Shown: positions 3,963-14,621 of the stretch, piece by piece
Position numbering within the stretch: position 1 is the first letter of the stretch
Layout of the letters: every line of letters starts with the position of its first letter
From: Planctomycetota bacterium
GTDB lineage: Bacteria > Planctomycetota > Phycisphaerae > Sedimentisphaerales > Anaerohalosphaeraceae
Assembly: GCA_016873215.1 (NCBI GenBank)
Contig: VGXU01000026.1
Location: 1-35,420 of the forward strand
DNA length: 35,420 nt
Direction of reading: 5' to 3'
Made by a program: the position numbers and the translations under genes
Notes under the pieces: generated by a model
What the model saw: the letters and a program-made list of their open reading frames with translations, nothing else
Databases searched by the model: none
What the model was told of the DNA's origin: nothing

Positions 3963-5210
3963 GTGAAAACAGCATTTCAAGTGACAAACGATAAAGAGGC
4001 GTTTTTGGCGCTGAAGAAAATCGCCGCCAAAAAGAAAATCGATATCAAGGGCGCCAAGGTCCGGCGGACGTCGTCGCGGTTTTGCCTTGGCGTTGAACAT
4101 GGTGATTATAACGGTACCGAATTGTTTGGCGTGGGAACGGACCGATTCATCTGGATGGCGTATAAGCCCAACGGCACGTCAAAAATGCGGCTGTACAGCG
4201 AGAATTTCCCCGGCGACGGTGTTGTGGAGTTCGAGCTGGGCAATGTGCCGGCGTCAAAGACAGTCGCTGACAGTTGGGCCAGATTCCCTTACGGTGTCGA
4301 TTATATCCTGCGTAACGCCGGGTATAATCTCAAGCAGGGTATCAATGCCGTGCTGCTGGGCAATATTCCCGGCGGCGGGATGAGCCGCTCGGCATCACTG
4401 TCGCTGAACCTGATTTTGTCGGTGCTGGACGCCAACGGCATCGTCGAAAAAGACCAGATGAAAATCGTCGATATGGCCCAGTTGGTGGAAAATGAGTACA
4501 TCGGTTCGCCGTGCGGGAAATTGGATCAGATTATGATATTTTTTGCCAAAGCGGGAATGGGGACACATTACAATCCTGCCACGCGGTCGATTAAATATGT
4601 CAAGCTCGGCAGCAAGGCGAAAGATTTTCGTATCGTCGTGATGGATACGGGAACGGTTCGTCCGGGTCTGGAGAAATCCACGTATAAAGTCCGCCGGGCG
4701 GAATGCGAAGAGATGGCTCAAAAGGCCAGGGATGCCGGGTTTGGAATTAATTGCCTTGCCGATATTCGCGAAGAAGCGTTGTATCAGCAAATCAAAGCTC
4801 GCTTTGAAAAGGGATTTCCGCATCTTGTGGACCGGATGACCTATATCTTCAAAGCGCAGATGCGGTTTTACAAGATGATGGCGGCATGGAAGCGAGGCGA
4901 TATCGCGACGGTCGGGAAGGTATTCCGCGACGACGGTATTGGCCTGCGGGACGAGTACAAAATTTCCGGGCCGGAACTGGAAACGATGTGCGATATCGTC
5001 CGCACGGTGCCGCAGGTGCTGGGCGAACGGATGCTGGGCGGCGGGGACAAGGGTGCGGCCGGGGCGCTGGTTCTGGCAGACGGGGCAGGCGCTTTGAAAA
5101 AGGCGGTCGAGACGGCTTATCCGCGGAGTCGGCCGGACTTCGCCGATAAGTTCGCCGTGCATACCTGTAAGGTGGTCGATGGTGTTAAGGTTTTCGAAAA
5201 AGGACTGTAA
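3963..5210 (+). CDS. Galactokinase-type GHMP sugar kinase
   Basis: This roughly 415-residue cytosolic GHMP-superfamily kinase probably makes a sugar 1-phosphate with ATP. Three galactokinase motifs can be aligned. The first is a modified sugar-binding signature around R39 and GVEHGDYNG (E45, H46, D48). The second is the phosphate loop GNIPGGGMSRSASL near residue 136. The third is GERMLGGGDKGAAGALV near the C-terminus. D188 in CGKLDQ matches the catalytic Asp of galactokinase. The signature is degenerate: the usual APGRVN is SSRFC and EHTDY is EHGDY, so the true sugar may differ from galactose. Two GTG codons (3960 and 3963) could start it; the second is better spaced from AGGAG at 3951-3955. 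It is co-transcribed with the symporter. Confidence 0.75.
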   Translation: MKTAFQVTNDKEAFLALKKIAAKKKIDIKGAKVRRTSSRFCLGVEHGDYNGTELFGVGTDRFIWMAYKPNGTSKMRLYSENFPGDGVVEFELGNVPASKTVADSWARFPYGVDYILRNAGYNLKQGINAVLLGNIPGGGMSRSASLSLNLILSVLDANGIVEKDQMKIVDMAQLVENEYIGSPCGKLDQIMIFFAKAGMGTHYNPATRSIKYVKLGSKAKDFRIVVMDTGTVRPGLEKSTYKVRRAECEEMAQKARDAGFGINCLADIREEALYQQIKARFEKGFPHLVDRMTYIFKAQMRFYKMMAAWKRGDIATVGKVFRDDGIGLRDEYKISGPELETMCDIVRTVPQVLGERMLGGGDKGAAGALVLADGAGALKKAVETAYPRSRPDFADKFAVHTCKVVDGVKVFEKGL

Positions 5211-5328: not shown

Positions 5329-5377
5329 AGTATTAAACTGCATGAATAACCCAAAAACGCACGGGAAGGTCGGAATT

Positions 5378-6898
5378 ATGGCAAAAAAACTTGCCCGGGA
5401 AGTAGAATTACTGGCCGATGTGGCCAAGGCATTTGCGGAATCGTTAAATCTGGAAGCGACGCTCGAATCCATCCTCAAGTCGCTGGATACACATCTGAAG
5501 TTTGAACGGGGTATTGTCACACTGCTCAATCCCGATAGTGAAATGATTAATATCAAGGTGGCGCACGGGATTACGGAGGAATCTAAAAAGGCTGTGACTT
5601 TCCGGGTAGGCGAAGGCATCACGGGGCTTGTGGTGCAGACCGGCAAAGAGGTCGTGGTGCCGGATATTCGTCTGGACCCGCGGTTCCTGGCCAAAACGGG
5701 CGACCGGCAGATTCCCAAAGGCCGCAAGATTGCTTTTATCTGCGTTCCCATCAAGCTGGAGGGGCAGACGGTTGGCGCAATCAGCGCGGATAAAAAGGTT
5801 GGGCCGGAAGAAGATTTTGAATCCCATGTGCGATTATTGGAAGTCATTGCCGCGATGATTGCCCAGGCGGTCAAGCTCAATAAAAGTATCGAGTCCGACA
5901 AAAAACGGCTTCGGAATGAAAACGAACGTCTGCTGCGGGAATTAAAAACCAAGTTCAAGGTGCAGAATATGATCGGCACCAGCAACGCCATCCAGGAGGT
6001 GTATCGGCTGATTTACCAGGTGGCCAACAGCAACGCGACGGTTCTGATTCGCGGCGAAAGCGGTACGGGTAAAGACCTGGTGGCCCATGCGATTCATTAT
6101 AACAGTCTGCGCAGCGATAAGCCGTTTATTAAGGTCAACTGCACGGCGCTGCCGGATACGCTGCTGGAAAGCGAACTGTTCGGCCACGAGAAGGGCGCTT
6201 TTACGGGGGCCGTGGAGCGGAAGCTCGGACGCTTTGAGCTGGCTCACGGCGGGACAATTTTTCTGGATGAGATCGGCGATTTTTCAATCAATTTACAGGT
6301 CAAGCTGCTGCGGATAATTCAATTTCGTGAATTTGAAAGGGTTGGCGGAACCGAAACGATTAAATGTAATGTGCGAATCATCGTGGCGACCAATAAAAAC
6401 CTTGAGGAAGGCATTCAGAATAAAGTGTTCCGCGAAGATTTGTATTATCGCATCAACGTTTTTCCGATATTTATTCCGCCACTGCGGGACCGCAAGGATG
6501 ATATCATGCTGCTGGCGGATTACTTCGTGGGGCAATATGCCGGCGAAAACGGCAAGCCTATTACGCGGATTTCGACGCCGGCCATTGAAATGCTTACGAG
6601 TTATCACTGGCCCGGCAATGTGCGAGAACTGGAGAACTGCATCGAGAGGGCGGTTCTGGTCTGTGATGGTGATGTCATCCGTTCGGACCACATGCCTCCG
6701 TCACTGCAAATGGTGCAAAAGACACAAAGTACCGATGGGCTGACGCTCGCCGAGCGTGTGGCCACGCTCGAAAAAGAGATGATTGTCGATGCGCTGAAGA
6801 AGACCGGCGGCTGTCAGCGTCGCGCTGCTAAAGAACTGGGAGTGACTGAACGTATCTTTGGCTACAAAATCCAGAAATATAACATCCTGAGAAAATAG
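5378..6898 (+). CDS. GAF-domain sigma-54-dependent activator (NifA-like), likely nitrogen regulator
   Basis: This 506-residue cytosolic transcription activator has three domains. A GAF sensor domain spans about residues 10-165. A linker helix then leads to an AAA+ domain with Walker A GESGTGKD (226-233), the sigma-54-contacting GAFTGA loop (273-278), Walker B GGTIFLDEIGD (291-301) and the arginine segment FREDLYYR. The C-terminus is a Fis-type helix-turn-helix (about 477-501, CQRRAAKELGVTERIFGYKI). There is no receiver domain, so control is by ligand or partner rather than phosphotransfer; PII is a candidate partner, as for some NifA proteins. The O2-sensing Cys cluster of rhizobial NifA is missing and no nif genes are nearby. 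The start at 5378 is preferred over 5342 because GGAAGG lies eight bases upstream. Paired palindromes precede it and all three sigma-54 promoters that follow. Confidence 0.9.
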   Translation: MAKKLAREVELLADVAKAFAESLNLEATLESILKSLDTHLKFERGIVTLLNPDSEMINIKVAHGITEESKKAVTFRVGEGITGLVVQTGKEVVVPDIRLDPRFLAKTGDRQIPKGRKIAFICVPIKLEGQTVGAISADKKVGPEEDFESHVRLLEVIAAMIAQAVKLNKSIESDKKRLRNENERLLRELKTKFKVQNMIGTSNAIQEVYRLIYQVANSNATVLIRGESGTGKDLVAHAIHYNSLRSDKPFIKVNCTALPDTLLESELFGHEKGAFTGAVERKLGRFELAHGGTIFLDEIGDFSINLQVKLLRIIQFREFERVGGTETIKCNVRIIVATNKNLEEGIQNKVFREDLYYRINVFPIFIPPLRDRKDDIMLLADYFVGQYAGENGKPITRISTPAIEMLTSYHWPGNVRELENCIERAVLVCDGDVIRSDHMPPSLQMVQKTQSTDGLTLAERVATLEKEMIVDALKKTGGCQRRAAKELGVTERIFGYKIQKYNILRK

Positions 6899-6922: not shown

Positions 6923-6967
6923 TTACAATAATGTAGATGGCATTGTTTTATACTACAATAATGTAGT
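6923..6967. promoter_or_regulatory. Paired enhancer palindromes ahead of the porin-amt-glnK operon (pair B)
   Basis: TTACAATAATGTAG (ACA at 6925) and CTACAATAATGTAG (ACA at 6955) are nearly identical and exactly 30 bp apart. CTACA and TGTAG are perfect inverted half-sites. The pair ends about 126 bp upstream of the -24 GG of the sigma-54 promoter, a normal distance for an enhancer-binding activator. Confidence 0.8.
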
Positions 6968-7088: not shown

Positions 7089-7104
7089 TGGCATACCTGT
7101 TGCT
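7089..7104 (+). promoter_or_regulatory. Sigma-54 promoter of the porin-amt-glnK operon
   Basis: TGGCATACCTGTTGCT has the -24 GG at 7090-7091 and the -12 GC at 7102-7103, with the required 10-base gap, and matches the TGGYAYR-N4-TTGCW consensus. Transcription would start near 7114, about 64 bases before the first start codon. Confidence 0.85.
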
Positions 7105-8111: not shown

Positions 8112-9533
8112 ATGGGACTGCGAAGAATAAACAAAAACGTTTTAGGATTGAGTATTTTGCTGTTCATGCTTTTGGGCGGGGCGGCGCTGGCAGATGAGGC
8201 CGCCCCCGCTGCGGCCGCTGAGGTGGTGATTAAGACCTCCGATCTTAAAGTTGGCATGGATACAATGTGGGTTATGCTGACTGCATTTCTGGTCTTTTTT
8301 ATGAATCTTGGTTTTGCAGCGGTGGAATCCGGATTTGCCCGTGCCAAAAACTGCGTGAACATCATGTCGAAGAATTTTGTTGTGTTCGCCGTATCATCGA
8401 TAGGTTTTTTGATCCTTGGATGGGGTTTGATGTTCGGCGATGGAAGCGGTTTGGTTGGGCTTAAAGGATTGTTCATGGCCAGCGGTGCGGATAACTCGCC
8501 CGCCACAGGCAGCGCTTATCAAGGGGTTTACTCTGCGATCTCCTGGACTGGAGTGCCATTCTGGGCCAAGTTCTTCTTCCAATTAGTGTTCTGCGGCACG
8601 GCAGCAACCATCGTATCGGGAGCGGTTGCCGAACGGATCAAATACCTGTCGTTTATTGTCTTTTCGTTTGTGATGGCGATGGTGATTTATCCGGTGGTGG
8701 GACACTGGGTCTGGGGCGGCGGCTGGCTGGCAAAAATGGGAATGTTCGATTTTGCCGGATCTACGGTAGTGCACTCTGTCGGGGGATGGGCGGCGCTGGC
8801 AGGGGTTATTATACTCGGTCCGCGAATCGGTAAATTCTCAAACGGTACAATCAAATCAATTCCAGGACATAACCTGTCTTTGGCGACTGTTGGAACATTT
8901 GTATTGTGGTTCGGATGGTTCGGGTTTAATCCCGGTTCAACCATGGCCGCCGATCCCGGTGCGATCAGTCATATTGCGGTAACAACCAATACGGCCGCTG
9001 CTGCGGCGATTTTCACTGCTACGCTTATGTCTTATCTGCTGCTGGGCAAACCTGACCTGGGTATGACATTGAACGGATGTCTTGCGGGGCTTGTGGCAAT
9101 TACGGCACCCTGTGCGTATGTCAGTGTCGGCAGTGCCCTGATTATCGGTTTAATCGCCGGCGCCCTGGTGGTACTGGCTGTGCTGATGTTTGACCGGCTG
9201 CGTCTGGATGACCCGGTGGGCGCCTTGTCCGTTCACCTTGTCAATGGTGTGTTTGGAACGATTTGTGTGGGTCTGTTTGCCCAGGATAAGATTACCGGAA
9301 CGGCCACCGGAAACGGATTGTTTTACGGCGGCGGTTTTGCCTTGCTCAAAGCTCAATTGGCGGCTGTTGTTACCGTAGGAATCTTTGTGTTCCTGATGTC
9401 GATTGTTGCATGGGTTGCCATAAAGGCAATTATGGGAGTGCGTGTATCACGTGAAGAAGAGCTTCGCGGCTTAGACATCGGCGAACATGGCAACGAAGCC
9501 TACAGTGGATTCCAAGTCTTCAGTACAATGTAA
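8112..9533 (+). CDS. amt: Ammonium transporter (Amt)
   Basis: This 473-residue inner-membrane Amt/MEP/Rh family protein conducts ammonium or ammonia across the membrane. A cleavable signal peptide is visible (residues 1-27, ending GGAALA before DEAAP), followed by eleven expected transmembrane helices. The pore twin histidines are H221 (DFAGSTVVHSVGG) and H375 (GALSVHLVNG). It is clearly diverged from the second Amt at 10201: HSVGGW replaces HINAGI around the first His and VHLVNG replaces VHGIGG around the second. The ribosome site is AAAGGAAAG, ending about six bases before ATG. It lies between the porin-like gene and a PII gene, which normally encodes its gatekeeper. Confidence 0.95.
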   Translation: MGLRRINKNVLGLSILLFMLLGGAALADEAAPAAAAEVVIKTSDLKVGMDTMWVMLTAFLVFFMNLGFAAVESGFARAKNCVNIMSKNFVVFAVSSIGFLILGWGLMFGDGSGLVGLKGLFMASGADNSPATGSAYQGVYSAISWTGVPFWAKFFFQLVFCGTAATIVSGAVAERIKYLSFIVFSFVMAMVIYPVVGHWVWGGGWLAKMGMFDFAGSTVVHSVGGWAALAGVIILGPRIGKFSNGTIKSIPGHNLSLATVGTFVLWFGWFGFNPGSTMAADPGAISHIAVTTNTAAAAAIFTATLMSYLLLGKPDLGMTLNGCLAGLVAITAPCAYVSVGSALIIGLIAGALVVLAVLMFDRLRLDDPVGALSVHLVNGVFGTICVGLFAQDKITGTATGNGLFYGGGFALLKAQLAAVVTVGIFVFLMSIVAWVAIKAIMGVRVSREEELRGLDIGEHGNEAYSGFQVFSTM

Positions 9534-9553: not shown

Positions 9554-9895
9554 ATGAAACTGATTATTGCTTATATACAACCGCACAAACTGGAAGAAGT
9601 CAAAGCCGCTCTGGCCAAAGCCGAAGTGGGAAAGATGTCCGTGACGAACTCGCTGGGCTGCGGTGCCCAGATGGGCTATGAAGAAAGCTATCGCGGCGTC
9701 AAGTTCGAGGTGAATCTGCTCAAGAAAATACGTCTTGAGATCGCCGTCAACGAAAGTTTTGTTGACAAGACCGTAAATGCCATTATCTCGGCGGCACGGA
9801 CCGGTCAGATTGGCGACGGCAAGATATTTATTGTTGAACTTGCGGAGTGTATCCGCATTCGCACCGGCGAGAAAGGTTCCAACGCCATCGGCTGA
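9554..9895 (+). CDS. glnK: PII signal protein (GlnK/GlnB family) without Tyr51
   Basis: This 113-residue trimeric PII protein binds ATP/ADP and 2-oxoglutarate and usually blocks the Amt pore when nitrogen is ample. It has the family N-terminus [16 protein letters not shown], the B-loop [11 protein letters not shown] and the C-terminal [13 protein letters not shown]. The effector residues Gly37, Gln39 and Lys58 are present. In the T-loop ([14 protein letters not shown]) Tyr46 is kept, but position 51, the uridylylated Tyr in enterobacteria, is Phe; position 49 is Val, not the phosphorylated Ser of cyanobacteria. It should therefore signal by ligands only. The start at 9554 fits GGAG nine bases upstream. 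It follows amt by 20 bp. Confidence 0.95.
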
Positions 9896-9922: not shown

Positions 9923-9967
9923 TTACAAAAACGTAGTCGATTCTTGTTTATATTACAAAAATGTAGG
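9923..9967. promoter_or_regulatory. Paired enhancer palindromes ahead of amt2 (pair C)
   Basis: TTACAAAAACGTAG (ACA at 9925) and TTACAAAAATGTAG (ACA at 9955) are exactly 30 bp apart. The first has one base off in its right half (CGT for TGT). The second ends 93 bp before the -24 element at 10057. The 30-bp spacing is shared with pairs B and D. Confidence 0.8.
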
Positions 9968-10055
9968 ATTTAAAAAGAAATGCGGTTTTGGAGATAGATT
10001 TGTATCTCTATTTCCTGCAAAAAGTTACGAATGCGTCAAGTTTCTTTGTGGTGTC

Positions 10056-10071
10056 TGGTATGGGCTTTGCT
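10056..10071 (+). promoter_or_regulatory. Sigma-54 promoter ahead of amt2
   Basis: TGGTATGGGCTTTGCT has GG at 10057-10058 and GC at 10069-10070 with a 10-base gap and fits the sigma-54 consensus. The expected start site is near 10081. That leaves a 120-base leader before amt2, which contains an intrinsic terminator. Confidence 0.85.
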
Positions 10072-10112
10072 ATACCTGTTCCGAAAGAAGCCTGATACAG
10101 AACGAATCAATG

Positions 10113-10150
10113 CCCTCGGCTTCGGTGCAAACGGAAGCCGGGGGTTTTTT
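10113..10150 (+). terminator. Intrinsic terminator inside the amt2 leader (possible attenuator or sRNA end)
   Basis: An 11-bp stem (CCCTCGGCTTC with GAAGCCGGGGG, one G-U pair) is followed directly by TTTTTT. It lies about 32-70 bases downstream of the predicted sigma-54 start and 51 bp before the amt2 start codon. Transcripts from that promoter should either stop here, giving an RNA of about 70 nt, or be allowed through by an unknown signal. It could also stop read-through from the preceding glnK operon. Confidence 0.8.
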
Positions 10151-10200
10151 AGTGTGACTCTGTTTTTAACAAAAGCATGAATTTTTTGGAGAACAGCAAA

Positions 10201-11535
10201 ATGAGAAAGAGAAATGTATGGTGGATTGCGCCGGCGATGCTGTTGTTGATGCTATCGACAGGCGTACTGGCGGACGAAGCAACTCCTGCTGCCGCGCCGA
10301 CTGCGAAGATTGATACCGGCGACACATCGTGGGTGCTGATCAGCTCGGCGATGGTGATGCTGATGACGCCGGGACTGGCATTCTTTTACGGCGGGCTGGT
10401 CCGCAGGAAGAACTACCTCAACGTCCTGATGCAATGTATGATTATCCTGGCCGTGCTGAGTATTCAGTGGGTGGTTATCGGCTATAGTCTGTCGTTTGCG
10501 CCGGGGAGCAAATGGATAGGCGGTCTGCAATGGATGATGCTTAAAGGTGTCGGGCTGGAACCCTACGCGGATTATTCCACGACGATTCCGCATCAAGCGT
10601 TTATGGTATTTCAAATGATGTTTGCGGTGATTACGCCGGCGCTGATTATCGGCGCGTTTGCCGAGCGAATGAAGTTTTCGGCGTTTCTGATTTTTACCGT
10701 GCTGTGGGCGACGTTTGTCTATGATCCGGTGGCGCACTGGGTCTGGGGTATGGGCGGCATTCTTCGGAATCTTGGCGCGCTGGATTTTGCCGGCGGTACG
10801 GTGGTGCATATTAATGCGGGCATCGCGGCGCTGGTGACCGCGCTGGTCATTGGCAAACGCAAAAGTGTTGACAAGCATCCGATTCCGCCGCATTCGCTGC
10901 CGTTCAGCGTTCTCGGCGCGGCATTGCTGTGGTTTGGCTGGTTTGGATTCAACGCCGGAAGCGCGTTGGGCGCCAACGGCATTGCGGTCAATGCTTTTGT
11001 GGTGACTCATACAGCGGCTGCGGCCGCGGCGCTGACCTGGGCTTTGATTGACTGGCGGATTCACGGGGCACCAACGATGCTGGGAACCATTTCCGGCGCG
11101 GTGGGCGGGCTGGTTGCGATTACACCTGCGGCGGGATTTGTCGGCGTGGGCAGCGCCATCATCATCGGTGTTATGGTCAGTGTCTTTTGTTTTCTCGCCG
11201 TCAGTTGGCTCAAACCGAGATTTGGATACGATGATTCGCTGGATGCGTTCGGCGTACATGGCATCGGCGGATTCTGGGGAGCATTGGCGACGGGGTTATT
11301 CGCGTCTAAAGCAATCAACCCCGCCGGGGCCGACGGGTTATTTTTCGGCAACCCCAAACAATTCGTGATTCAGCTTGCCGCATCGCTGGTGACTGTCGTG
11401 TATGCATTCATTATCACTCTGATTCTGTACAAGGTGGTGGACCTGTTTATCGGTGTTCGCGTCAGCGACAAAGAAGAGGCAATGGGCTTAGACGTGACAC
11501 AGCACAATGAACGTGCTTATACGGCGCTGGAATAA
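10201..11535 (+). CDS. amt: Ammonium transporter (AmtB type), second copy
   Basis: This 444-residue Amt channel is closer to the classic AmtB pattern. A signal peptide ends at about Ala24 (STGVLA before DEATP). AFFYGGLVRRKN, HWVWGMGG, DFAGGTVVHINAG (H203) and DAFGVHGIGG (H353) give the twin-His pore. The C-terminal tail (GVRVSDKEEAMGLDVTQHNERAY) is the segment that transmits the activation signal and contacts PII in this family. The start at 10201 is preferred because GGAG at 10188-10191 is nine bases upstream, while the ATG at 10177 has no ribosome site. It is paired with its own PII gene 35 bp downstream. Control should be by the sigma-54 promoter at 10056 and by the terminator in the leader. 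Confidence 0.95.
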   Translation: MRKRNVWWIAPAMLLLMLSTGVLADEATPAAAPTAKIDTGDTSWVLISSAMVMLMTPGLAFFYGGLVRRKNYLNVLMQCMIILAVLSIQWVVIGYSLSFAPGSKWIGGLQWMMLKGVGLEPYADYSTTIPHQAFMVFQMMFAVITPALIIGAFAERMKFSAFLIFTVLWATFVYDPVAHWVWGMGGILRNLGALDFAGGTVVHINAGIAALVTALVIGKRKSVDKHPIPPHSLPFSVLGAALLWFGWFGFNAGSALGANGIAVNAFVVTHTAAAAAALTWALIDWRIHGAPTMLGTISGAVGGLVAITPAAGFVGVGSAIIIGVMVSVFCFLAVSWLKPRFGYDDSLDAFGVHGIGGFWGALATGLFASKAINPAGADGLFFGNPKQFVIQLAASLVTVVYAFIITLILYKVVDLFIGVRVSDKEEAMGLDVTQHNERAYTALE

Positions 11536-11570: not shown

Positions 11571-11912
11571 ATGAAACTGGTTATAGCCATTATTCAGCCG
11601 CACCGGCTGGAAGAAGTTAAAGAAGCATTATACAAAGCGGAAGTCAATCTGATCACTGTATCCGAGGTCTTTGGACATGGTCGTCAGGGCGGCGTGACGG
11701 AAGTTTATCGCGGCTTTAAGGAAACGGGCAACCTGCTGCGGAAGATTCGTCTTGAGATTGCCGTCAATGATAGTTTTGTCGATCCGACCATCAAGGCGAT
11801 CACTCAGGGTGCCCGCACCGGCGAGATCGGCGACGGGAAAATTTTTGTCCTCGACCTGGAACAATGTGTTCGCATCCGCACCGGTGAAAAGGGAAGTGCT
11901 GCGATTGGATAA
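11571..11912 (+). CDS. glnK: PII signal protein (GlnK/GlnB family), second copy, without Tyr51
   Basis: This 113-residue PII protein has MKLVIAIIQPHRLEEV, a T-loop GRQGGVTEVYRGFKETGN, the B-loop TGEIGDGKIFVLDLEQ and the C-terminal [13 protein letters not shown]. Gly37, Gln39 and Lys58 for ATP/2-oxoglutarate binding are present. Position 51 is Glu, so the uridylylation site is absent here too; Tyr46 remains. The T-loop differs clearly from the first PII, so each may be matched to its own Amt. GGGAG lies eight bases before ATG. It is the last gene of the amt2 operon. Confidence 0.95.
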   Translation: MKLVIAIIQPHRLEEVKEALYKAEVNLITVSEVFGHGRQGGVTEVYRGFKETGNLLRKIRLEIAVNDSFVDPTIKAITQGARTGEIGDGKIFVLDLEQCVRIRTGEKGSAAIG

Positions 11913-11965: not shown

Positions 11966-12010
11966 CTACAATTTTGTTTTTTGCGGAGTTGAAAAATACA
12001 ATTTTGTAGA
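11966..12010. promoter_or_regulatory. Paired enhancer palindromes ahead of glnN (pair D)
   Basis: CTACAATTTTGTTT (ACA at 11968) and ATACAATTTTGTAG (ACA at 11998) are exactly 30 bp apart. The second ends 92 bp before the -24 element at 12099, almost the same geometry as pair C ahead of amt2. Confidence 0.8.
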
Positions 12011-12017
12011 ATTTGTG

Positions 12018-12045
12018 CCTGTTCTGAAGACAGGTGCGGTTTTTG
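12018..12045 (+). terminator. Possible weak terminator after the second glnK
   Basis: A short stem CCTGTT/GACAGG with loop CTGAA is followed, after five bases, by a run of five T. It is the only terminator-like element between the second glnK and the glnN promoter. The stem is short and the gap before the T-run is poor, so this is tentative. Confidence 0.3.
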
Positions 12046-12097: not shown

Positions 12098-12113
12098 TGG
12101 CACGTGGTTTGCG
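12098..12113 (+). promoter_or_regulatory. Sigma-54 promoter of glnN
   Basis: TGGCACGTGGTTTGCG matches the sigma-54 consensus TGGCACG-N4-TTGC perfectly, with GG at 12099-12100 and GC at 12111-12112. The expected start near 12124 leaves a leader of about 390 bases before glnN. Confidence 0.9.
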
Positions 12114-12123
12114 AATAAGTTTA

Positions 12124-12345
12124 TACAACTGAAGTTAAGTGAAAATGAAGAACCCAAAAATGACGACAACCGGGGGGTTACGGGTTGACCTGTTGGAAAA
12201 AGGTGCGGTAGGGACAACAGGAGTTGTCCAGGCAGGTTCATCCGAGATCAAGTCGCTTATTTGGGATACCTTGCCGAATAACGGCGTTTTTGGTGTTCTT
12301 CATGCGGGCCGGCTTCGGCGCTCGTCGGGGCCGGCTCTTAATTGA
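12124..12345 (+). promoter_or_regulatory. Structured leader of the sigma-54 glnN transcript
   Basis: CAACAGG (12215-12221) can pair with CCTGTTG at 12189-12195. The overlapping GGACAAC (12212-12218) can instead pair with GTTGTCC at 12223-12229 (7 bp, 4-base loop). The two hairpins exclude each other. Further down, a GC-rich hairpin is built on GCCGGC at 12308-12313 and 12330-12335, followed by TCTTAATT, which is too weak for a standard terminator. A 66-68 codon open frame also runs from 12139/12145 to 12345 but has a weak ribosome site and no recognisable product. Switch-like structures upstream of glnN suggest RNA-level control; a known riboswitch class was not recognised. Confidence 0.45.
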
Positions 12346-12399: not shown

Positions 12400-12427
12400 T
12401 TGACTTGCTTGGTGTGAAGACTATAAT
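12400..12427 (+). promoter_or_regulatory. Second, sigma-70-type promoter of glnN
   Basis: TTGACT (12400-12405) and a perfect TATAAT (12422-12427) are separated by 16 bp. Transcription would start near 12434, about 82 bases before glnN. The start lies at a stem GCTGCC (12432-12437)/GGCAGC (12471-12476). It gives glnN basal expression independent of the sigma-54 promoter. Confidence 0.75.
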
Positions 12428-12515: not shown

Positions 12516-14621
12516 ATGGAGACACCAAAATGTACATCTGAAATTTTTGGAATTAATGTGTTTAATGACGCTCTAATGCGAGAGAGGCTTCCGAAGAATA
12601 TCTATAAAGCATTTGTTTCCGCTCGCAAGGGGCATCAGGAAATGACGCTGTCGGTGGCGGATGTTATCGCTAACGCGATGAAGGACTGGGCGATTGAGAA
12701 GGGCGCAACGCATTATTGCCACTGGTTCCAACCGATGACGGGCCTGACGGCGGAAAAACACGATGCGTTTATTAATCCCACGCCGGATGGAAAAACCATT
12801 CTCGAGTTCAGCGGCAAGGAACTGATCAAAGGCGAGCCGGATGCATCGTCATTTCCATCGGGCGGCCTGCGTGCCACGTTTGAAGCCCGCGGTTATACGG
12901 CATGGGATATTACATCGCCGGCGTTTGTTCGAGAGAACGGCAAGAATATCATCCTTTACATTCCGTCGGCATTCTGCAGTTATACGGGCGTGGCACTGGA
13001 CAAGAAAACGCCGTTGCTGCGTTCAATGGAAGCCCTGAGCAAACAGGCGGTTCGTGTGTTGAAGGCGTTGGGAAATACCAGCGTTAGCGCGGTGGCGGCA
13101 ACGCTGGGCCCTGAGCAGGAGTATTTCCTGGTGGACCGGAAATTTTTTGATAAGCGGCTGGATCTGCTGCTGGCCGGTCGGACGCTGTGTGGCGCTCCGT
13201 CGCCCCGCGGACAGGAGATGGAAGACCATTACTTCGGTTCGCTGCACGAGCGTGTAGCAAACTTTATGAACGAGGTCAATGTCGAACTGTGGAAGCTCGG
13301 CGTTTCCGCCAAGACGCAGCACAATGAAGTTTCCCCGGCGCAGTATGAACTGGCTCCGGTTTTTGCCACCGTTAACGTCGCGACGGACCATAATCAATTG
13401 ACGATGGATGCGATGCAAAAAATTGCGTTGCGGCATGGGTTTGTCTGTCTGCTGCACGAAAAGCCGTTTGCCGGTGTTAACGGTTCCGGCAAGCACAATA
13501 ACTGGAGTATGTGCACCGATACGGGCATCAATCTGCTGGATCCGGGCAATACGCCGCATGACAATATGGTGTTCCTTGTTTTCCTGTGTGCGGTGATTCG
13601 CGCGGTTGATAAATACGCCGGGATACTGCGGGCATCCGTTGCCACGCCTGCCAACGACCATCGGCTGGGTGCCAATGAAGCACCGCCGGCGATTGTGTCG
13701 ATATTCCTGGGTGAACAATTGACCGACATCTTTGAGCAACTTGCCAGCGGCAAAGCCAAAAGCAGCAAGCAGGGCGGTGAAATGAAAGTCGGCGTCACGA
13801 CGCTTCCGCCGCTGCCCAAGGACAGTACCGACCGCAACCGGACCAGCCCGTTTGCCTTTACCGGCAACAAATTTGAATTCCGGATGGTGGGTTCGTCGCA
13901 ATCCACGGCAGGGCCGATGTTTGTGCTTAATACCATTGTAGCGGACATTCTGTCGGAAGTCGCCGATGAGCTTGAAAAAAGCAAGAATATCAATGCCGAT
14001 ACCCAAAAACTGCTGCAACGGATCGTCAAAGAACACGCACGGATTATCTATAACGGCGACAACTATGTCGAAGAGTGGGCCAAAGAAGCTGAAAAACGAG
14101 GTTTGCCAAATGTCCGTTCCAGTGTAGATTCCATTCTTACTATTTATAGCCCTGAACATATTAAGCTGTTCAGCAAGCACAATGTGCTCAGCAAGGTGGA
14201 ACTGCACGCCCGGATGGAAATACTGCTGGAGAACTATGCCAAGACCCTCAACATTGAAGCCAAGACGATGCTCCAGATGGGCCGGCGTCAAATTTTGCCT
14301 GCGGCGATAGCATTTGCCGGTAAAGTGGCCTGCGCGATGAACAGCATGACCACAGCCGGTGTAAAGCCCGAGGCACAAAAGGCATTACTAAAGAAAGCCA
14401 ACGACCTGATTGCAGAACTGAGCGAGGTGCTGAATGTGCTGCAGGTTGCCGTGGCTAAGGCGAAAGAGACGGACAAGGCCGACAAGAAGGCCGACGCCTA
14501 CCGGGACAAAGTCGTTCCGGCGATGGTGGAAGTCCGCCGGGTCGCCGATGAACTGGAAACAATTGTGGATGCCGAGTTGTGGCCGATGCCGACATACGCC
14601 CAAATGCTGTTTATCCGGTAA
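12516..14621 (+). CDS. glnN: Glutamine synthetase type III
   Basis: This 701-residue enzyme makes glutamine from glutamate, ammonium and ATP. The length and motifs identify the large GlnN/GSIII class rather than the 450-residue GlnA. These are THYCHWFQPMTGLTAEKHDAF near the N-terminus, the metal-binding GPEQEYFLVD and NEVSPAQYELAPVF, KPFAGVNGSGKHNNWS, ANDHRLGANEAPPAIVS, and NRTSPFAFTGNKFEFRMVGSS. GSIII enzymes are not controlled by adenylylation as GlnA is, so control is expected mainly at transcription, matching the sigma-54 and sigma-70 promoters upstream. GGAG at 12504-12507 is eight bases before ATG. It is a single-gene unit closed by a terminator. Its glutamine feeds the operon that follows. 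Confidence 0.97.
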   Translation: METPKCTSEIFGINVFNDALMRERLPKNIYKAFVSARKGHQEMTLSVADVIANAMKDWAIEKGATHYCHWFQPMTGLTAEKHDAFINPTPDGKTILEFSGKELIKGEPDASSFPSGGLRATFEARGYTAWDITSPAFVRENGKNIILYIPSAFCSYTGVALDKKTPLLRSMEALSKQAVRVLKALGNTSVSAVAATLGPEQEYFLVDRKFFDKRLDLLLAGRTLCGAPSPRGQEMEDHYFGSLHERVANFMNEVNVELWKLGVSAKTQHNEVSPAQYELAPVFATVNVATDHNQLTMDAMQKIALRHGFVCLLHEKPFAGVNGSGKHNNWSMCTDTGINLLDPGNTPHDNMVFLVFLCAVIRAVDKYAGILRASVATPANDHRLGANEAPPAIVSIFLGEQLTDIFEQLASGKAKSSKQGGEMKVGVTTLPPLPKDSTDRNRTSPFAFTGNKFEFRMVGSSQSTAGPMFVLNTIVADILSEVADELEKSKNINADTQKLLQRIVKEHARIIYNGDNYVEEWAKEAEKRGLPNVRSSVDSILTIYSPEHIKLFSKHNVLSKVELHARMEILLENYAKTLNIEAKTMLQMGRRQILPAAIAFAGKVACAMNSMTTAGVKPEAQKALLKKANDLIAELSEVLNVLQVAVAKAKETDKADKKADAYRDKVVPAMVEVRRVADELETIVDAELWPMPTYAQMLFIR

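Follow-up and report, generated by a model that had tools for sequence, protein, structure and literature searches.

ANTAR proteins account for most of what is known about attenuation in the leaders of nitrogen genes, and NrsZ is an example of a nitrogen-related small RNA driven by sigma-54. In a published survey, ANTAR targets were found upstream of the genes encoding PII proteins and ammonium transporters (PMC3369931). In addition, the small RNA GlnZ originates from the glnA 3'UTR (PMC9731577). The locus analyzed here is part of a nitrogen cluster in a 35,420-nt stretch of planctomycete DNA (hereafter, the window), where a strong intrinsic terminator lies between a predicted sigma-54 start and the second ammonium transporter gene.

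The nitrogen cluster comprises, in this order, the genes of a sigma-54 activator, a porin-like ORF, amt1, glnK1, amt2, glnK2, type III glutamine synthetase (glnA) and glutamate synthase. According to Pfam matches, the sigma-54-dependent activator (5342–6898) has GAF, AAA+ and Fis-type HTH domains, the ammonium transporters amt1 (8112–9533) and amt2 (10201–11535) match PF00909, and the PII proteins glnK1 (9554–9895) and glnK2 (11571–11912) match PF00543; all five genes are on the plus strand. The type III glutamine synthetase gene, which has a sigma-54 promoter upstream, occupies positions 12516–14621. A Shine-Dalgarno sequence of amt2, GGAG, is located at 10188–10191 (plus strand), and the sequence from GGAG through the start codon is identical in G011, the nearest relative, which belongs to the same genus. 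The amt2 product reaches 73–75% with transporters of Omnitrophota versus 33–46% with most transporters of its own family; this closer relation to Omnitrophota suggests an old transfer or paralogy.

Three sigma-54 sites, all on the plus strand, were found in the cluster: TGGCATACCTGTTGCT (7089–7104) upstream of the porin-like/amt1/glnK1 unit, with no strong terminator behind it, TGGTATGGGCTTTGCT (10056–10071) upstream of amt2, and TGGCACGTGGTTTGCG (12098–12113) upstream of glnA. The amt2 element matches the -24/-12 pattern TGGYRYR-N4-TTGCW without mismatches and predicts a start at about 10082, in agreement with the sequence-only reading, which had placed a sigma-54 start near 10081. Each site is preceded by a pair of enhancer palindromes, namely, two copies of TACAATAATGTA (6924–6965), TACAAAAACGTA and TACAAAAATGTA (9924–9965), and a third pair for glnA (11967–12008). 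The spacing within the pairs is exactly 30 bp (6924/6954, 9924/9954 and 11967/11997), and they are located 135, 102 and 101 bp upstream of the sites at 7089, 10056 and 12098, respectively. Of only five copies of the palindrome TACAWNNWTGTA in the whole genome (2.69 Mb), four belong to the nitrogen cluster. The genome also encodes RpoN, and the activator encoded at 5342–6898 is probably the reader of the palindromes, judging by its adjacency. Thus, the attributes of an enhancer-dependent sigma-54 promoter are all present: a TGG-N9-TGC element with activator sites upstream of it, and genes for RpoN and for an AAA+ activator in the genome. The combination of palindrome pair and sigma-54 site, including the arrangement upstream of amt2, is kept across relatives of the order.

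Several other features were noted around these promoters. An inverted repeat, GGTATGG..CTATACC (10056–10077), shares sequence with the amt2 sigma-54 element; it folds no better than shuffled sequences. A weaker terminator (12013–12039) is located between the glnA enhancer pair and the glnA sigma-54 site. Between the latter site and glnA there is a 66-codon open frame (12145–12342) without a Pfam match, which contains a GC hairpin (12308–12335) and is followed by a sigma-70-like site with an 11/12 match (12400–12427).

The intrinsic terminator in the amt2 leader (10113–10150, plus strand) consists of an 11-bp stem with arms at 10113–10123 and 10134–10144, a 10-nt loop GGTGCAAACG at 10124–10133, and T6 at 10145–10150. 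The 46-nt hairpin has a folding energy of -26.7 kcal/mol versus -12.3 ± 2.3 kcal/mol for shuffled sequences (z -6.2); none of 200 shuffles was equally stable, and none of 300 shuffles of the leader yielded an equally strong terminator. A GC-rich stem followed by a U-run and stability beyond chance are the sequence marks of an intrinsic terminator. The 11-bp stem, the T6 run and a product of about 70 nt had been correctly proposed from the sequence alone, the predicted RNA being about 69 nt long. A rule-based terminator scan overlooked the element only because it allowed loops of up to 8 nt. No T-run accompanies the stem on the minus strand, and the terminator is therefore expected to act on rightward transcripts only. 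No terminator was found in the window sequence between the glnK1 stop codon and the amt2 enhancer pair, a point that the sequence-only reading had not raised, so that the element at 10113–10150, located 218 nt past the glnK1 stop and 30 nt behind the amt2 transcription start, is the sole terminator between amt1-glnK1 and amt2. The distance from promoter to start codon in the window (145 nt) is among the longest, the median for 55 leaders with enhancers being 89 nt. The hairpin has no duplicates in its own genome and hence is not a repeated element; CGGCTTCGGYGC occurs in seven copies genome-wide that form no clear family. A search in Rfam 15 detected no leader, riboswitch or RNA family at the gathering score; weak matches with an animal microRNA family and BjrC68 were far below the threshold and were discarded.

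Conservation of the leader was analyzed by a blast search of positions 10040–10200 against 161 genomes of the order, including that of the window. The order belongs very probably to Planctomycetota, since the contig of one of its members, G117, is in part identical to JALORE010000015.1, a record from a Planctomycetota MAG. Positions 10082–10150 have no counterpart at meaningful E-values in the 160 other genomes, and the best match outside the window was short and weak (E 0.0016 over 30 bp). No counterpart was found in G011 either, the amt2 of which is 82% identical. A covariance model of amt leaders from genus g2 gave no match in the window. A strong leader terminator was detected in only two of 64 distinct sigma-54-type amt leaders, in the window (-26.2 kcal/mol in this comparison) and in G019, a genome of the same family; conservation of 10081–10150 in relatives, which the sequence-only reading had proposed as a check, was therefore not borne out, as the leader terminator is absent even in G011. 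The terminator of G019 (-19.4 kcal/mol, T5) follows a divergent upstream gene, and the motif TTCCGAAAG near the predicted start site is common to both leaders.

In G011, glnK1 is directly followed by a strong terminator, then by the enhancers and a short leader without a terminator. Nearly all relatives of the order that were compared likewise have the terminator ahead of the enhancers, where it ends the amt1-glnK1 unit. Among the glnK-to-amt gaps listed, those of families f7 and f2 and of genomes G117 and G141 have a terminator or a terminator-like hairpin upstream of the promoter. The f7 gaps between glnK2 and glnA are mostly devoid of a terminator, and because of this the separation of glnK1 from amt2 looks specific. 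In other gaps of family f1 (G011 glnK2-amt3, G025 and G028), a hairpin encloses the enhancers. There, hairpins of the upstream glnK unit surround the enhancers of the next unit (L011 in G028, L009 in G025 and L113 rc 4690–4726 in G011), meaning that enhancer and terminator occupy the same DNA and that such interleaving is common in this family.

The simplest account of the terminator's history appears to be displacement, not independent gain and loss. We consider the chances about even that the terminator of the amt1-glnK1 unit now lies behind the amt2 promoter, where it would insulate amt2 and passively attenuate it. In relatives, the equivalent terminator would close the amt1-glnK1 transcript ahead of the amt2 enhancers; in the window lineage, its position behind the amt2 start would give it two jobs. 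The first would be to stop amt1-glnK1 read-through into amt2. Secondly, a terminator between the amt2 start and amt2 must also lower amt2 transcription, and amt2-glnK2 would be expressed only to the extent that transcripts initiated by sigma-54 pass it. Such a passive attenuator would scale amt2 below amt1, with the 69-nt RNA as a by-product. This reading presumes that the hairpin terminates in vivo and that read-through is unregulated. In favor of it are the strength of the hairpin, the order-wide layout, the arrangement in G011 and in the other gaps described above, the empty spot ahead of the amt2 enhancers, and the long leader of the window. Against it, 218 nt past the glnK1 stop is far for a simple 3' end, and a terminator that mostly cuts amt2 expression would be costly unless read-through were adjusted. 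In addition, the leader terminator of G019 cannot serve an upstream operon because the upstream gene is divergent; together with the shared TTCCGAAAG, this makes G019 the best argument for leader terminators with a role beyond insulation.

A possible, though distinctly less probable, explanation is that read-through is controlled by a signal, a protein or the ribosome, amt2 then requiring both sigma-54 initiation and antitermination. The position of the terminator within the leader is consistent with this, as are the terminator in G019, which has no upstream unit to end, and the presence of TTCCGAAAG near both start sites. A 15-codon ORF (10110–10157) passes through the stem but has no Shine-Dalgarno sequence, and an alternative pairing, GAAGCC/GGCTTC, forms transiently during RNA growth but gives a fold about 15 kcal/mol weaker than the terminator. 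Moreover, the terminator is not conserved in G011 or in 62 of the 64 leaders, and neither an ANTAR domain nor an Rfam leader at the gathering score was detected. As a candidate antiterminator, the 6-nt GAAGCC/GGCTTC pairing was rejected, since equally good ones occurred in 26% of shuffles, that is, at chance level. The leader comparison revealed no mutually exclusive antiterminator conserved in relatives, nor were ANTAR hairpins, a leader peptide or a riboswitch found in the amt2 leader. Thus, the attenuator proposed earlier holds insofar as the layout makes amt2 dependent on read-through, provided that the terminator works, while nothing positive was found for its regulation.

It is very improbable that the 69-nt RNA is itself a functional sigma-54-driven small RNA of nitrogen stress, with amt2 transcripts coming from another source. 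A sigma-54 start followed by a strong terminator would indeed yield a discrete RNA of about 69 nt with a free 5' third, but the leader is not conserved in the 160 genomes of the order or in G011, it is also the natural amt2 5'UTR, and amt2 has no other consensus promoter. A search for Hfq in seven genomes of the order gave no match, while five positive controls were detected. An NrsZ-like RNA would be discrete, short and conserved and would have targets in trans, and positions 10082–10150 are unconserved; with no counterparts and no Hfq found, the small-RNA idea of the sequence-only reading gained no support.

Very improbable, too, is that the 10056 site does not drive amt2 and that the promoter of this gene lies past the terminator. 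The -24 box TGGTATG is weaker than TGGCACG, and matches to the consensus are by themselves no more frequent than chance: with one mismatch permitted, the window contains five matches to the sigma-54 pattern versus 5.8 expected. For this reason the case for the amt2 promoter rests on context, and this context, namely, the enhancer palindromes at a conserved distance and the homologous layout in dozens of relatives, argues strongly for the 10056 site. An amt2 promoter 3' of the terminator had been named beforehand as the finding that would speak against the whole scheme; the scan of 10150–10200, between terminator and amt2, gave no consensus sigma-70 or sigma-54 match.

ANTAR-type antitermination, as at amt/glnK genes of Firmicutes and some deltaproteobacteria, is unlikely for amt2 and the least probable of all explanations: each of six genomes with hairpins in amt or glnK leaders but lacking a clear sigma-54 site has ANTAR proteins, and these genomes served as positive controls, but no such domain was found in the window's own genome (99.86% complete) or in G011, and inspection by eye against the published definition of two hexaloop (A1..G4) hairpins, the second overlapping the terminator (PMC3369931), revealed no dual hairpin with A1/G4 hexaloops, only a 4-bp hairpin being predicted upstream of the terminator.

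In f7, another family of the order, the glnK1 3'UTR contains GGCACCACTTCC, which is complementary over 11–12 nt to the Shine-Dalgarno region of amt2. The element is present in eight glnK-to-amt2 gaps of six genomes, in each case better than all 200 shuffles, and has the form GGCACCACTTCC(A)n..AGTGCC in gaps L152, L153, L154, L155, L156 and L157. Two pairs are altered on both sides (GACACC/GGTGTC in G149 and GGTACC/GGTACC in G154), exact matches outside amt loci are few and lie within coding sequence, and in G153, where no glnK1 unit precedes amt2, the ribosome site lacks the motif. These data, from few independent lineages, suggest that amt2 translation is limited by the RNA of the first unit, acting either in cis through read-through or in trans; the element is a candidate for antisense control of amt2, by a 3'UTR-derived RNA or by read-through. 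A similar pairing in the window, TTTCCAAAAA with TTTTTGGAGA, had a p of 0.07 and was not accepted.

Other recurrent leader and 3' elements were observed. In family f2 (L161–L165, L171), the terminator-like hairpin after glnK has a conserved loop, CCACGGCTGG, that is complementary to CAGCCG(T) in the leader or start region of the amt gene downstream; in L171 both partners are changed (ATGGCTG / CAGCCAT). A further complementarity, between CTCTGTGCC and the ribosome site GGCACAGAG, was seen in G065 (p 0.005) and G062 (p 0.03). Leaders of the first sigma-54 unit in family f1 (L114 3078–3140, L203, L208, L211, L216, L218 and others) share ACAGGCCTG near +30, in many cases within the loop of a hairpin whose stem varies; because the motif is palindromic, it may function either as an RNA loop or as an activator site downstream of the start. 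It is absent from the window's 7089 leader. The amt leaders of genus g2 (L204, L205, L206, L207) have a common 6–7 bp hairpin with a loop near UGNNGUGU, followed by a CCGNAAGA-like sequence, with two pairs showing both-sided changes in the four sequences.

Tentatively, and with a rather low probability, the second ammonium-transporter operon may be held down after initiation throughout the order by RNA elements connected with the first operon, with a device specific to each family. If so, the devices would include the amt2-leader terminator in the window and the f7 glnK1 3'UTR complementary to the amt2 Shine-Dalgarno sequence, and the window terminator would represent one version of a hierarchy that generally holds between the two transporter units. 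A strong terminator behind a sigma-54 promoter, with no ANTAR protein detected, would amount to a two-gate control of ammonium uptake or, alternatively, to one terminator that insulates one operon while throttling the next. The palindrome pairs 30 bp apart, together with sigma-54 sites, define a compact nitrogen regulon conserved through this uncultured planctomycete order.

Compared with the known systems, the window resembles the ANTAR leader attenuators (NasR/nasF, EutV/eutP; PMC3369931) in having an intrinsic terminator between the start and nitrogen genes, including those of ammonium transporters and PII, but differs in the lack of dual hexaloop hairpins and of a detectable ANTAR protein. 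As with NrsZ, a sigma-54 start and a terminator would yield a short RNA; unlike NrsZ, this RNA is unconserved, coincides with the amt2 5'UTR and is not accompanied by a detectable Hfq. Only the f7 element is similar to GlnZ (PMC9731577), in that a 3'UTR element from one nitrogen operon is complementary to the mRNA of another nitrogen gene; in a genomic setting where no Hfq was found, this candidate differs in pairing with the adjacent amt2 Shine-Dalgarno region. Finally, the locus shares with sigma-54 glnK-amtB promoters of the NtrC/NifA type the paired palindromes, the -24/-12 element, the amt-glnK unit and the adjacent gene of an AAA+ activator, and is distinguished from them by the palindrome TACAWNNWTGTA, the 30-bp spacing and the terminator within the leader.
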